Below, piece after piece: positions 3,497 through 62,055 of a stretch of 64,000 bases of DNA. Both the position numbers and the translations under genes were made by a program. Position 1 is the first letter of the stretch. Every line of letters starts with the position of its first letter. The stretch comes from Alphaproteobacteria bacterium. GTDB taxonomy: Bacteria > Pseudomonadota > Alphaproteobacteria > CACIAM-22H2. The stretch spans positions 623,724 through 687,723 of the forward strand of contig JAFKFM010000006.1 of assembly GCA_017308135.1 (NCBI GenBank), given 5' to 3'. The notes beneath the pieces were generated by a model. It did not search any database. It saw only the letters and a program-made list of their open reading frames with translations, and was not told the DNA's origin.

Positions 3497-3829
3497 ATGA
3501 CCTATGTCGTCACCGATACCTGCATCAAGTGCAAGTACACCGACTGCGTTGAAGTGTGCCCCGTCGATTGCTTCTATGAAGGCGAGAACATGCTCGTCAT
3601 CAAGCCCGACGAGTGCATCGATTGCGGCGTCTGCGAGCCGGAATGCCCGCCCGAAGCGATCGTGCCGGATACCGATCCGCGCGCGTCCAAATGGCTGGCG
3701 CTGAACACCGAATATGCCGAGAAATGGCCGAACATCACCCGCAAGAAGGACGCCTTGCCGGGGGCCGACGATGTCCGGTCCGAAGAAGGCAAATTCGAAA
3801 AGTATTTTAGCGAAAAGCCCGGCGGTTAA
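3497..3829 (+). CDS. fdxA: Seven-iron ferredoxin (3Fe-4S/4Fe-4S)
   Basis: Soluble electron carrier of 110 residues. Cysteines at 9, 17 and 50 fit the 3Fe-4S ligands and those at 21, 40, 43 and 46 the 4Fe-4S ligands, with a free cysteine at 25, as in Azotobacter ferredoxin I; C12 is additional. The C-terminal extension after residue 60 ([16 protein letters not shown]) is typical of FdxA. It starts at ATG 3497 behind GAAGAGAG. It sits between the S4 protein and carD, the standard alphaproteobacterial order. Confidence 0.95.
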
Positions 3830-3858: not shown

Positions 3859-4140
3859 GTCAAGCGAAGAATCCGTCTTCGCATAGCCGTCCCTTGCGAA
3901 AAACGCGGGTGTCGGGCGTGATTTTTCACCATTTTTGTGATAGCTTCTTTCCCATCGGGCTGCGGCATTTTTGCAGCACCCCTGGCCCCGGAAGGGGCGT
4001 TTCGGGCTTTAAGCCCGTCACATATCGCGGCGTCGCCTGAAATTCAGGCGACAGAGCCTCAACAGCTTGGAATGCCTTGGAAATAGGCATTCCCGGGTGT
4101 CGGGTTTTCTGTCCCCAGCGAGCCGGGGGCAGCGCGTCGG
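3859..4140 (+). other. Run of hairpins between fdxA and carD; candidate structured leader or small RNA
   Basis: The 351 nt between fdxA and carD hold at least seven stem-loops on the plus strand: 3864-3882 (7 bp), 3959-3977 (5 bp), 3985-3998 (5 bp closing a GGAA tetraloop), 4003-4017 (7 bp around one T), 4032-4052 (perfect 21-nt palindrome with 10-bp arms), 4069-4093 (9 bp, 7-nt loop) and 4109-4132 (8 bp with one G-T pair). A short CCCG/CGGG stem followed by TTTT (4092-4108) overlaps the 3 prime arm of the sixth. I recognise no known RNA family. It could be a carD leader, a separate small RNA or fdxA 3 prime structure. Confidence 0.5.
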
Positions 4141-4180
4141 GGGGTCAATGAATGGGTGCTTGGAAGGAGTTTCGGCTCAC

Positions 4181-4705
4181 ATGACGGTTGCGAAAAAAGT
4201 GGTACGCGAGACGGACGATCTGGGCTTCGCGGTTGGCGATCACGTGGTCTACCCGACGCATGGCGTGGGCAAGATCACCGGCCTGGAAACGCAGGAAATC
4301 GCGGGCCACAAGCTACGCCTGTTCGTGATCCAGTTCGACAAGGACCGGATGACGCTGCGCGTGCCGACGATGAAGGCCAAGACGTCGGGCCTGCGCCGCC
4401 TGTGCACCAAGAAGGAAATGACCAACGCGCTCGCCACGTTGAAGGCGCGCGCGCGCGTGCGCCGCACGATGTGGAGCCGCCGCGCCCAGGAATACGAAGC
4501 CAAGATCAATTCGGGCGATCCCAAGGCGATCGCGGAGGTCGTGCGCGACCTGTTCCGCAACGCCGGCCAGCCCGACCAGTCGTTCTCGGAACGCCAGATG
4601 TACCAGGCGGCCCTCGATCGTCTGGTGCGCGAATTCGCCGCCGTCGAGAAGATCTCGGAAGAGACGGCCGTGCAGCGCTTGGAAGCGATGCTCAAAGCCG
4701 CCTAA
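4181..4705 (+). CDS. carD: CarD/CdnL family transcription regulator
   Basis: RNA-polymerase-binding transcription factor of 174 residues that stabilises open promoter complexes, notably at rRNA promoters. The N-terminal Tudor-like interaction domain (about 14-70) includes FAVGDHVVYPTHGVGKI and LRVPTMKAKTSGLR; the rest is the helical DNA-contacting domain with MWSRRAQEYEAKINSGDP. The ATG at 4181 is chosen because GGAAGGAG (4162-4169) lies just upstream. It has its own strong terminator. The long, highly structured region upstream suggests regulation at the RNA level. Confidence 0.95.
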   Translation: MTVAKKVVRETDDLGFAVGDHVVYPTHGVGKITGLETQEIAGHKLRLFVIQFDKDRMTLRVPTMKAKTSGLRRLCTKKEMTNALATLKARARVRRTMWSRRAQEYEAKINSGDPKAIAEVVRDLFRNAGQPDQSFSERQMYQAALDRLVREFAAVEKISEETAVQRLEAMLKAA

Positions 4706-16912: not shown

Positions 16913-18139
16913 TTACCGCGCCTTACGGGCCGCCGCCAAAGCGCGTTCGATGTCTTCCAGCAAATCGGCCGGATCTTCGATCCCCACCGACAGGCGCAGG
17001 CTGCCGGGGCCGATGCCCAGGCGTGCCTTCTCCTCCGCCGGCAGACGTTGATGCGTCGTCGTCGCGGGGTGGGAGATCAGGCTTTTGACGTCGCCCAAAT
17101 TGTTGGAAATGTCGATCGTCTGCAGCGCGTCCTGGAAAGCAAAGGCCGCTTTCTTGCCGCCCTTCACGTCGAACGCGACCAGCGTCGAGCCCGACTTCAT
17201 CTGCTTGCGCGCGAGCGCGTATTGCGGATGCGATTTGAGGCCGGGGTAGTAGACGCGCTCGATCTCGCGCGCTTTCTCCAGCCGCTTGGCGACGATCAAC
17301 GCGTTGCGCGTTTGCGCTTCCACGCGCAACGGCAGCGTCTCGATGCCCTTCAGCAGCACCCAGGCGTTGAAGGCCGAGAGCGTCGGGCCCGTGTGGCGCA
17401 GGAATGGCACCAGCGTCTCGTCGATCCATTTCTGGCGGCCGAGCACCGCCCCGCCCAGCACGCGGCCCTGGCCGTCGATATGCTTGGTGGCGGAATAGAT
17501 CACCACGTCCGCCCCCAGCGCCAACGGCTTCTGATACATCGGCGTGGCGAACACGTTGTCGACGACGACGCAAGCACCGGCCTTATGCGCGAGCTTCGAT
17601 ACGGTTTTGATATCGACCAGATCGAGCATCGGGTTCGACGGCGTTTCCAGGAACACGGCCTTCGCGGGTTTGGACAGCGCCGTTTTCCATTGGTCGAGAT
17701 CCGCGCCGTCGACCAGCACCGACTCGATGCCCCAGCGCGGCAGCAGCTCGGTCACGATGTAATGGCACGAGCCGAACAGCGCACGCGCCGAAACGATGCG
17801 ATCGCCCGCCTTCAATTGGCAAGCGAGGGCGGCGAACACCGCCGCCATGCCCGATGCCGTGACCTTGCAGGCTTCGGCGCCTTCCAACGCGGCCAAGCGC
17901 TTTTCCAGCATCTGATTAGTCGGGTTGCCGAAGCGCGAATAGACGAAGCGCTGATCCTTCGGCGGCGTCTTCGACGAGAAGGCCGCTTCGGCGTCGAAGG
18001 CGCTGTCGTAGACGAAGCCCGAATTGAGATAGAGCGCCTCGCTCGTCTCGAACCATTCGGAACGGTGCGTGCCTTCGCGCACCACGCGCGTAGCGGCGCG
18101 CCAGGATTTGCGGATCGTATCGGACTTGTTGGCCGGCAT
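16913..18139 (-). CDS. metZ: O-succinylhomoserine sulfhydrylase
   Basis: PLP enzyme of the Cys/Met metabolism family, 408 residues, making homocysteine directly from O-succinylhomoserine and sulfide. Seen: YSRFGNPT (68-74), DNVFATP (194-200), the PLP lysine 219 in YSATKHIDGQGRVLGG, and SLRLSVGIEDP near the end. The ATG at 18137-18139 gives MPANKSDTIRKSW, a usual start; an open frame upstream runs through the riboswitch and is not coding. Expression is expected to fall when S-adenosylmethionine is high, through the SAM-II element upstream. Confidence 0.93.
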   Translation of the reverse strand: MPANKSDTIRKSWRAATRVVREGTHRSEWFETSEALYLNSGFVYDSAFDAEAAFSSKTPPKDQRFVYSRFGNPTNQMLEKRLAALEGAEACKVTASGMAAVFAALACQLKAGDRIVSARALFGSCHYIVTELLPRWGIESVLVDGADLDQWKTALSKPAKAVFLETPSNPMLDLVDIKTVSKLAHKAGACVVVDNVFATPMYQKPLALGADVVIYSATKHIDGQGRVLGGAVLGRQKWIDETLVPFLRHTGPTLSAFNAWVLLKGIETLPLRVEAQTRNALIVAKRLEKAREIERVYYPGLKSHPQYALARKQMKSGSTLVAFDVKGGKKAAFAFQDALQTIDISNNLGDVKSLISHPATTTHQRLPAEEKARLGIGPGSLRLSVGIEDPADLLEDIERALAAARKAR

Positions 18140-18153
18140 CGGAAGAAACCCCC

Positions 18154-18185
18154 AAAACGACAAAACCCCGACCGTGGGATCGGGG
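18154..18185 (-). terminator. Regulatory terminator between SAM-II element and metZ
   Basis: On the minus strand, CCCCGA and TCGGGG (18180-18185 and 18166-18171) form a stem followed by TTTTgtcgTTTT, 15 nt before metZ. Its place directly after the riboswitch suggests transcriptional attenuation. A second hairpin, GGAACC/GGTTCC, lies between riboswitch and terminator. Confidence 0.8.
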
Positions 18186-18227
18186 CTTTCGGGCGGAACC
18201 GCGAGGGGTTCCGGGACTTCCGGCACC

Positions 18228-18290
18228 GACCTTTTAGCGGGAGGATTAACGTGACCCCGCAAGCCGGCCGGCCCAAATCGTCACGTGAGG
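18228..18290 (-). promoter_or_regulatory. SAM-II riboswitch
   Basis: The minus strand shows the conserved SAM-II core: GATTTGG, CCGGCTTGC, CACGTTAA and CGCTAAAAGG in order, able to form the compact H-type pseudoknot that binds S-adenosylmethionine. It starts a few bases after the predicted transcription start and precedes a terminator and metZ. SAM-V shares part of this core, but the gene context and the CCGGCTTGC loop favour SAM-II. Confidence 0.88.
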
Positions 18291-18293
18291 GCG

Positions 18294-18322
18294 AAACTAT
18301 TCCCGCCCCCGATTTCTGTCAA
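18294..18322 (-). promoter_or_regulatory. Sigma-70 promoter of metZ
   Basis: TTGACA (18317-18322) and TAGTTT (18294-18299) on the minus strand with a 17-nt spacer. Transcription would begin at about 18287, at the 5 prime end of the SAM-II element. Confidence 0.75.
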
Positions 18323-18374: not shown

Positions 18375-18448
18375 GCGGGTGTAGCTCAATGGTAGAGCAG
18401 AAGCTTCCCAAGCTTACGACGAGGGTTCGATTCCCTTCACCCGCTCCA
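18375..18448 (+). tRNA. tRNA-Gly (anticodon CCC)
   Basis: A 74-nt cloverleaf with encoded CCA. Acceptor arms GCGGGTG and CACCCGC pair; D arm GCTC/GAGC encloses AATGGTA; the anticodon loop is TTCCCAA, giving anticodon CCC for GGG codons; the T arm carries GGTTCGATTCC. Its 3 prime half is overlapped on the other strand by the last codons of the peptide transporter ATPase. Confidence 0.96.
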
Positions 18449-27832: not shown

Positions 27833-27911
27833 GAACTCTCCCCGCGTCGGACGTTAGCGAACCCCGATTGCGGTTTGGAGTCATATTTGTGACAGCCGGG
27901 CCCCGCTCCAA

Positions 27912-27946
27912 ACGAAACGGGCCGGTCTTGCGACCGGCCCGTTCGT
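27912..27946 (-). terminator. Terminator of amtB
   Basis: A 15-bp stem with one bulged A (ACGAAACGGGCCGGTC and GACCGGCCCGTTCGT) and a TTGC loop, followed on the minus strand by TTTcgTTT-like sequence. It lies 27 nt after the amtB stop and insulates the ugp operon. Confidence 0.85.
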
Positions 27947-27972
27947 AACGTCCGTCCCTTGCGGGAAGGGTG

Positions 27973-61102: not shown

Positions 61103-61927
61103 TCACTCCCCCGCCAAAACGCGGATCTCGACCTTGGCGCCCGGCTTGAACCGCGCCGCACACCAATCCCAAGCCTCGCGCATCGCTTCTTCGTAGCGCC
61201 ACGGCGCGTTGATCGCCAGGATTCCGCAGCCGCGCAAGCCTTTCGCGTCGGGCGTGGCCGGCCACTCGATTTCCGCGAGCGTCACGCGGCGCGTCTCGCC
61301 CGTCGCATAGGCCGCGATCAGCGCGTCGGGCCCTTCCCGATCCTTGATCGGATACCAGGCGAGAAACACGCCGGTCGCGAAACGCTTCAAGCCATGGCGC
61401 AGGCCGCGCGCGAGTTTGTCGAACTCGTCTGTCGATTCGAACGGCGGATCGATCAGCACCACGCCGCGCCGTTCGCGCGGCGGTAATTTGGATTTGATGG
61501 CGGCGTAGCCGTCGTCGGCGACGATTTCGATTCCGCTTTCGCCGGCAAAGGTCCGCTGCAACGTCGCGGCGTCGACTTGATGCAGTTCGCACAGCATCGC
61601 GCGATCGCCGTCGCGCAGGAAATGGCGCGCCACGCGCGGACTGCCCGGATACCAGCGCGCCGGCAGATCGGCGAGGACGGCGGCGTAGGGGGCGAGCGAT
61701 TCGGGTGCGGCCGCCAGATCGTCGCGCAGTTTGGCGATGCCGTCGCGCCATTCGCCGGTGCGCGTCGCCTGATCGGCTTCGAGATCGTATTCGCCCAGCC
61801 CCGCATGGGTGTCGAGCACGGCGAAGGGCTTGGGCTTTTCAGTCATGCGCGCGAGCACCCAGGCATAGGTCGCATGCTTGACGACATCGGCGAAATTGCC
61901 GGCGTGGAAGGCGTGTCGGTAGTTCAT
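61103..61927 (-). CDS. rlmJ: 23S rRNA (adenine-N6) methyltransferase RlmJ
   Basis: Methylates A2030 of 23S rRNA; 274 residues. Seen: MNYRHAFHAGNFADVVKHA, DTHAGLGEYDL, and the catalytic DPPFE (DPPYE-type) in VVLIDPPFESTDEF. Followed immediately by the CpdA-like gene. Confidence 0.93.
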   Translation of the reverse strand: MNYRHAFHAGNFADVVKHATYAWVLARMTEKPKPFAVLDTHAGLGEYDLEADQATRTGEWRDGIAKLRDDLAAAPESLAPYAAVLADLPARWYPGSPRVARHFLRDGDRAMLCELHQVDAATLQRTFAGESGIEIVADDGYAAIKSKLPPRERRGVVLIDPPFESTDEFDKLARGLRHGLKRFATGVFLAWYPIKDREGPDALIAAYATGETRRVTLAEIEWPATPDAKGLRGCGILAINAPWRYEEAMREAWDWCAARFKPGAKVEIRVLAGE

Positions 61928-61967
61928 GGTGGCGCGCAATCTAGCGCGCGATCGAGGCCAGCGCCCC

Positions 61968-62022
61968 AAAAAGTAATCGGGCCGCCGTCCATTCCCGGGA
62001 GCGGGGGGAGGACGGCGGCCCG
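61968..62022 (-). terminator. Terminator of the iron-binding protein gene
   Basis: Perfect 13-bp stem CGGGCCGCCGTCC/GGACGGCGGCCCG (61978-62022), with a TCCCGGGA palindrome in the loop, followed on the minus strand by TTACTTTTT. Confidence 0.9.
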
Positions 62023-62055
62023 ACGCCGCGAGCGGGAAGTAAGGGGCTCGAAACC

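Follow-up and report, generated by a model that had tools for sequence, protein, structure and literature searches.

What lies between fdxA and carD in this alphaproteobacterium, and does it belong to carD? In Alphaproteobacteria, CarD activates rRNA and housekeeping promoters globally, and in R. sphaeroides it reportedly represses its own promoter. The window (the whole 64,000-nt stretch of DNA analysed here) carries a chain of hairpins ahead of the carD gene, which an initial annotation had read as seven consecutive stem-loops possibly forming one RNA. The reading that we favour, with a probability of roughly 0.6, is that of a promoter followed by a cis-acting structured 5′ leader of ~228 nt which tunes the stability or translation of the carD mRNA.

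The fdxA–carD gap and its hairpins

The upstream gene (3497–3829, + strand) encodes the 7Fe-type ferredoxin FdxA (NCBIfam NF045490, FdxA_Protbact, 166.3 bits, above cut-off), and the downstream gene (4181–4705, + strand) a CarD protein of the CdnL family (Pfam CarD_C, 88.5 bits, and CarD_TRCF_RID, 56.5 bits, both above cut-off). Of 80 further loci, nearly all retain this order of fdxA and carD. The gap between the two genes measures 351 nt and carries the hairpin chain; in the crude gene calls it ended at 4066 owing to a false upstream start of carD. A ribosome-binding sequence, GGAAGGAG, can be read directly at 4162–4169 (+ strand), ~55 nt downstream of the hairpin core.

The core, as delimited by the match to covariance model R1 (see below), spans 3951–4109 on the + strand and comprises five hairpins, all on that strand. 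Hairpin 1 (3957–3982) starts a few nucleotides after the inferred transcription start. Hairpin 2 (GCCCC-GGAA-GGGGC; 3985–3998) is paired in 98% of the alignment cells in 10 genomes, among which its outer pair changes from G-C to U-A, while hairpin 3 (CGGGCTT/AAGCCCG; 4003–4017) has a CGGGC/GCCCG core that is invariant in the 10 genomes. Hairpin 4, by direct reading, is a perfect palindrome of 21 nt, GTCGCCTGAA-A-TTCAGGCGAC (4032–4052); in relatives a hairpin is found at the same position with a diverged sequence and with double changes in four inner pairs. Hairpin 5 (4053–4108) consists of a core at 4069–4093, i.e. a 9-bp stem GGAATGCCT/AGGCATTCC (4069–4077/4085–4093), and a longer basal stem, and shows double changes in five pairs in relatives; adjoining the 9-bp stem is CCCGGGTGTCGGG-TTTT (4092–4108). 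The palindrome, a GGAA tetraloop stem (CCCC-GGAA-GGGG, 3986–3997) and the 9-bp stem beside a CCCG/CGGG-TTTT element had all been named in the initial annotation and are indeed present. A sixth hairpin, CUGUCCCC/CGGGGGCAG (4109–4132, + strand), appears in the fold after the core and outside model R1; it also occurs in the nearest sister, and some relatives have other hairpins at that position.

The stretch 3859–4140 folds at −126.5 kcal/mol (z −4.32; 0 of 200 shuffles equal), and its core portion, 3953–4109, reaches z −5.24 against shuffled sequence. The gap as bounded by the crude calls (z −5.42) ranked second among the 44 gap/strand combinations of the window. Strong folding was also seen in two other gaps, 27833–27972 (z −5.5) and 61807–62055 (z −4.7), which by eye are each dominated by a single long terminator-like hairpin or a few of them (e.g. 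ACGGGCCGGTCTTGCGACCGGCCCGT; TCGGGCCGCCGTCC...GGACGGCGGCCCGA) and hold no five-hairpin chain. In the minimum-energy fold of the whole window leader, the 5′ arm of hairpin 1 is paired with the ribosome-binding region instead.

Conservation of the fold

Alignment A3 was made with MAFFT from seven genus members, with the window left out and structure ignored; in it, hairpin 4 forms a 38-nt block and hairpin 5 a 25-nt block, both gap-free in all seven sequences. A covariance model (R1) built from A3, and so with the window held out, retrieved the three held-out leaders including that of the window (44.3 bits, E 1.5e-11), and against the whole genome of the window 3951–4109 was the sole match (E 4.7e-10). 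The corresponding sequence-only model scored 28.5 bits on the window and covered hairpins 1–3 only. R1 gave one significant match per genome, each directly 5′ of carD, in 10 out of 10 readable genus members (L039, also matched, belongs to the genus).

When the ten sequences were aligned by fitting to R1, 17 of the 38 pairs showed double changes (43 cells), and 89.8% of cells were paired, as against 37–45% with slid arms. Such a fitted alignment is biased toward the model, and the test was therefore repeated on the structure-free A3, using a tree-aware null in which substitutions were reshuffled along the tree of fdxA and carD in 2000 simulations. In A3, 91.2% of cells were paired and double changes occupied 24 cells, where the null averaged 62% and 6.6; none of the 2000 simulations was as high. 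By double-change cells hairpins 4 and 5 were each significant under this null, whereas hairpins 1–3 vary too little for strong covariation and are supported by conserved pairing. Compensatory changes among relatives, whose lack the initial annotation had named as refuting its reading, exist and go beyond the tree-aware null. In the window itself the alignment of hairpins 4–5 to R1 is uncertain, with a posterior of ~0.6 in places. In a MAFFT alignment of ten sequences, hairpins 2 and 4 of the window's lineage were out of register; the consensus that RNAalifold derived from it was weaker for that reason and was set aside.

Read on the + strand, G-U cells outnumber A-C cells 29 to 6, an excess which implies that selection acted on RNA of the carD strand. 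An antisense RNA was considered, as the minus strand folds as strongly, but the G-U bias argues against it as the conserved strand. On these comparative grounds the gap almost certainly encodes a conserved structured RNA on the strand of carD.

Predicted promoter and extent of the leader

Over the 5′ third of the gap the ten genus members cannot be aligned. It is followed by a conserved block of ~60 nt that ends in TTTTTGTGATAGCTT, and in the 10-genome alignment this genus-wide promoter block corresponds to 3887–3950 (+ strand) of the window. Within it, the extended −10 TGATAGCTT (TG-A-TAGCTT) at 3938–3946 is invariant in 10 of the 10 genus members with a readable fdxA–carD gap, and its spacing to hairpin 1 is constant in all 10; the −35 at the carD promoter of the window is weak. 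Similar extended −10 sites occur in most relatives, with TGATATAAT, TGCTATATT and the like at the −10 position. A placement of the −10 as GATAGC, without the −7T, was dropped, since relatives (TGATATAAT and similar) point to TAGCTT with the −7T.

From this conserved motif we predict that carD transcription starts near 3953, which would give carD a 5′ UTR of ~228 nt in the window and leaders of 227–304 nt across the genus. A start downstream of 4135 had been named as an observation that would speak against a leader; the conservation-inferred promoter lies far upstream of it. A hairpin at 3864–3882 and looser ones up to ~3945 are situated 5′ of this promoter and hence outside the predicted transcript. 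The former is conserved no further than the nearest sister genome, and the fdxA 3′ end may include the hairpins before 3945. That all seven hairpins belong to one RNA is not supported, since those before ~3945 precede the inferred start. The broader suggestion of a structured RNA leading into carD is supported by the covariation and the inferred promoter, and the element is probably the leader of the carD mRNA.

A further conserved element, TGCGAAAAACGCG..CGTG-TTTTT (3889–3920), occurs genus-wide just 5′ of the promoter and could be an UP element, an operator or the fdxA terminator.

Distribution among relatives

R1 was run on 61 genomes, 23 genomes of the family and 80 named loci and returned nothing significant outside the genus, and MAFFT alignment of gaps from the whole family gave no alignability beyond the genus. 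The five-hairpin architecture was detected only in this one genus of uncultured alphaproteobacteria. A weak R1 match at the correct place in locus L024 (E 0.05) and the by-eye similarity of hairpins 1–3 in L019, L020 and L024 give a hint of family-level ancestry. In a wider set, the 66 relatives with a called promoter had a median leader of ~200 nt, only mildly structured, for the most part over its first 50 nt (median z −0.8 versus ~0 further on), both medians being rough since the caller scored the genus's own sites too low and may be wrong at a few loci. A long carD leader looks to be class-wide; the five-hairpin fold was seen in the one genus.

Several relatives differ in other ways. The element is absent from G009 (L139, G009:C37), which is filed in the genus and whose carD, 62% identical, lies at a contig end; this contig is possibly contamination. 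In L019 and L020, both of one sister genus, an inverted repeat (GTTGTAA...TTACAAC) encloses the −10 of carD and looks like an operator over the promoter. L028, L029 and L030 belong to a different genus of the family; their carD apparently encodes a long N-terminal extension rich in Lys, Pro and Ala, with a start ~200 nt past the promoter. Searching for the Caulobacter leader by promoter pattern yielded a single match, which was not carD.

Alternative explanations

Ordinary GC-rich intergenic DNA, in which chance hairpins would accompany a promoter and the terminator of fdxA, would be in keeping with the similar folding z of two other gaps in the window and with the possible assignment of the hairpins before 3945 to the fdxA 3′ end. 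We consider it extremely improbable in the face of the tree-aware covariation, the detection of held-out leaders by R1 and the one-strand G-U bias; an alignment artefact would be needed in hairpins 4 and 5, which show no gaps across the seven genomes and keep lengths of 38 and 25 nt. A feedback leader, whose hairpins would be recognised by CarD or an RNA-binding protein, is very improbable as well. Hairpins arrayed in line are a common protein-binding form, which is the form seen here. CarD levels are also tightly controlled in other bacteria (PMC11034885; PMC8820732). The loop of hairpin 2, however, is GGA, which could suit CsrA, in some genomes and GGCA in four, and a CsrA-type GGA hairpin was rejected for this reason. 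A separate or leader-derived small RNA resembling UpsM, in which a stop or cut near 4109 would yield an RNA of ~155 nt from the same promoter, is an unlikely reading, if the foremost of the alternatives. The core closes on a U-rich run, UUUUC or UUUC, whose position is constant in 10 of 10 genomes, the window has the terminator-like CCCGGGTGTCGGG-TTTT at that end, and UpsM, a 268-nt leader with a terminator, sets a precedent (PMC5089854). Yet a stem with an immediate U run is missing at the core end in most other genomes, no Rho-independent terminator common to the genus was found in the 10 genomes, the U tract is just 3–5 nt long and in the window is paired into the base of hairpin 5, and the element always lies immediately 5′ of carD. 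Of the original pair of options, leader or small RNA, the leader is supported, and the small RNA is left without a genus-common terminator.

A regulatory switch (an attenuator or translational sensor), in which two mutually exclusive pairings would swap on a signal and alter carD expression, ranks next and is likewise improbable. CCGUUU, which forms the 5′ arm of hairpin 4, has two possible partners that are conserved: the 3′ arm of that hairpin (36 of 42 cells) and GAACGG, which follows hairpin 5 (39 of 42); the next best partner site scores 31. Hairpin 1 can pair by its 5′ arm with the ribosome-binding region, both in the window and in its sister. GAACGG is the main conserved unpaired motif, but it is nearly invariant, leaving little covariation for the second pairing; a chance match to CCGUUU among ~70 places is not unlikely, the motif is not clear in the window, and the second pairing is not clear in the window's own lineage. 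The element further has no conserved junction, unpaired core, Rfam match or conserved terminator. The more specific idea of a new sensing leader, in which the CCGUUU switch would adjust CarD levels to a signal of growth or starvation, is more doubtful again; if true, hairpin 4 would link growth or starvation to rRNA promoter activity via CarD. The sensing leader suggested by the initial annotation thus found no backing in a multi-helix junction, a conserved unpaired core or an Rfam match, while its remark that no known riboswitch core is visible proved right: Rfam 15, searched at gathering level and at E 10, gave no credible match in the gap.

The same search found a SAM_alpha riboswitch (RF00521, 52.8 bits) elsewhere in the window, at 18214–18294 (− strand), before an O-succinylhomoserine sulfhydrylase gene (16913–18262, − strand). 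The called TTG start of this gene overlaps the riboswitch, and its true start is therefore probably further downstream. A tRNA (18375–18445) lies nearby.

Proposed role of the carD leader

For the preferred reading, a structured leader of carD acting in cis, we propose the following course. RNA polymerase would initiate near 3953, directed by the extended −10 promoter. Five consecutive hairpins joined by short linkers would form in the first ~155 nt of the leader, and transcription would read on into carD. The 5′ hairpin and the chain behind it may shield the message from 5′-end-dependent and RNase E decay and keep the leader off the start codon, and would in this way set the amount of CarD. 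A linear array without a junction, unpaired core or Rfam match fits such protection and insulation better than a ligand pocket. We would give even odds that the leader acts mainly in cis on how stable the carD mRNA is or how well it is translated. The covariation-supported helices offer concrete targets in the carD leader and make RNA-level control of CarD testable, with a reach limited by the narrow range of the element, i.e. one genus of uncultured Rhodospirillales-type bacteria.

Comparison with known systems

Structured leaders are a known kind of element and a long carD leader has already been mapped, but this hairpin structure is apparently undescribed; a literature search in which subscription journals were thinly covered returned no paper on carD leader structure or function. 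Stem-loops of the ompA type at the 5′ end stabilise bacterial mRNAs, and like them the window has a stable hairpin a few nucleotides from its (inferred) 5′ end; they consist of one or two hairpins, whereas the window has five or six, with a predicted effect on half-life. In mycobacteria an antisense RNA acts on carD, according to PMC8820732, which is likewise control at the RNA level in the same gene family (here predicted), but in the window it is the sense strand that carries the structure, within the probable 5′ leader.

Closer in kind are the carD/cdnL leaders of Caulobacter crescentus (233 nt) and Sinorhizobium meliloti (266 nt), which precede the same gene and have their promoter in the gap before it; the predicted ~228 nt of the window is near both mapped lengths (PMC5324124). 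These leaders are known from start-site mapping, with no structure described in the passage on them, whereas the start in the window is predicted. UpsM, the leader of mraZ/dcw in Rhodobacteraceae (268 nt), carries a Rho-independent terminator and is proven to exist as a small RNA (PMC5089854), in contrast to the element in the window, which lacks a conserved terminator and whose transcript is predicted. UpsM is nonetheless the closest alphaproteobacterial parallel: like the predicted leader in the window, it is an uncommonly long structured 5′ leader that precedes a core growth gene and occurs in one taxon.
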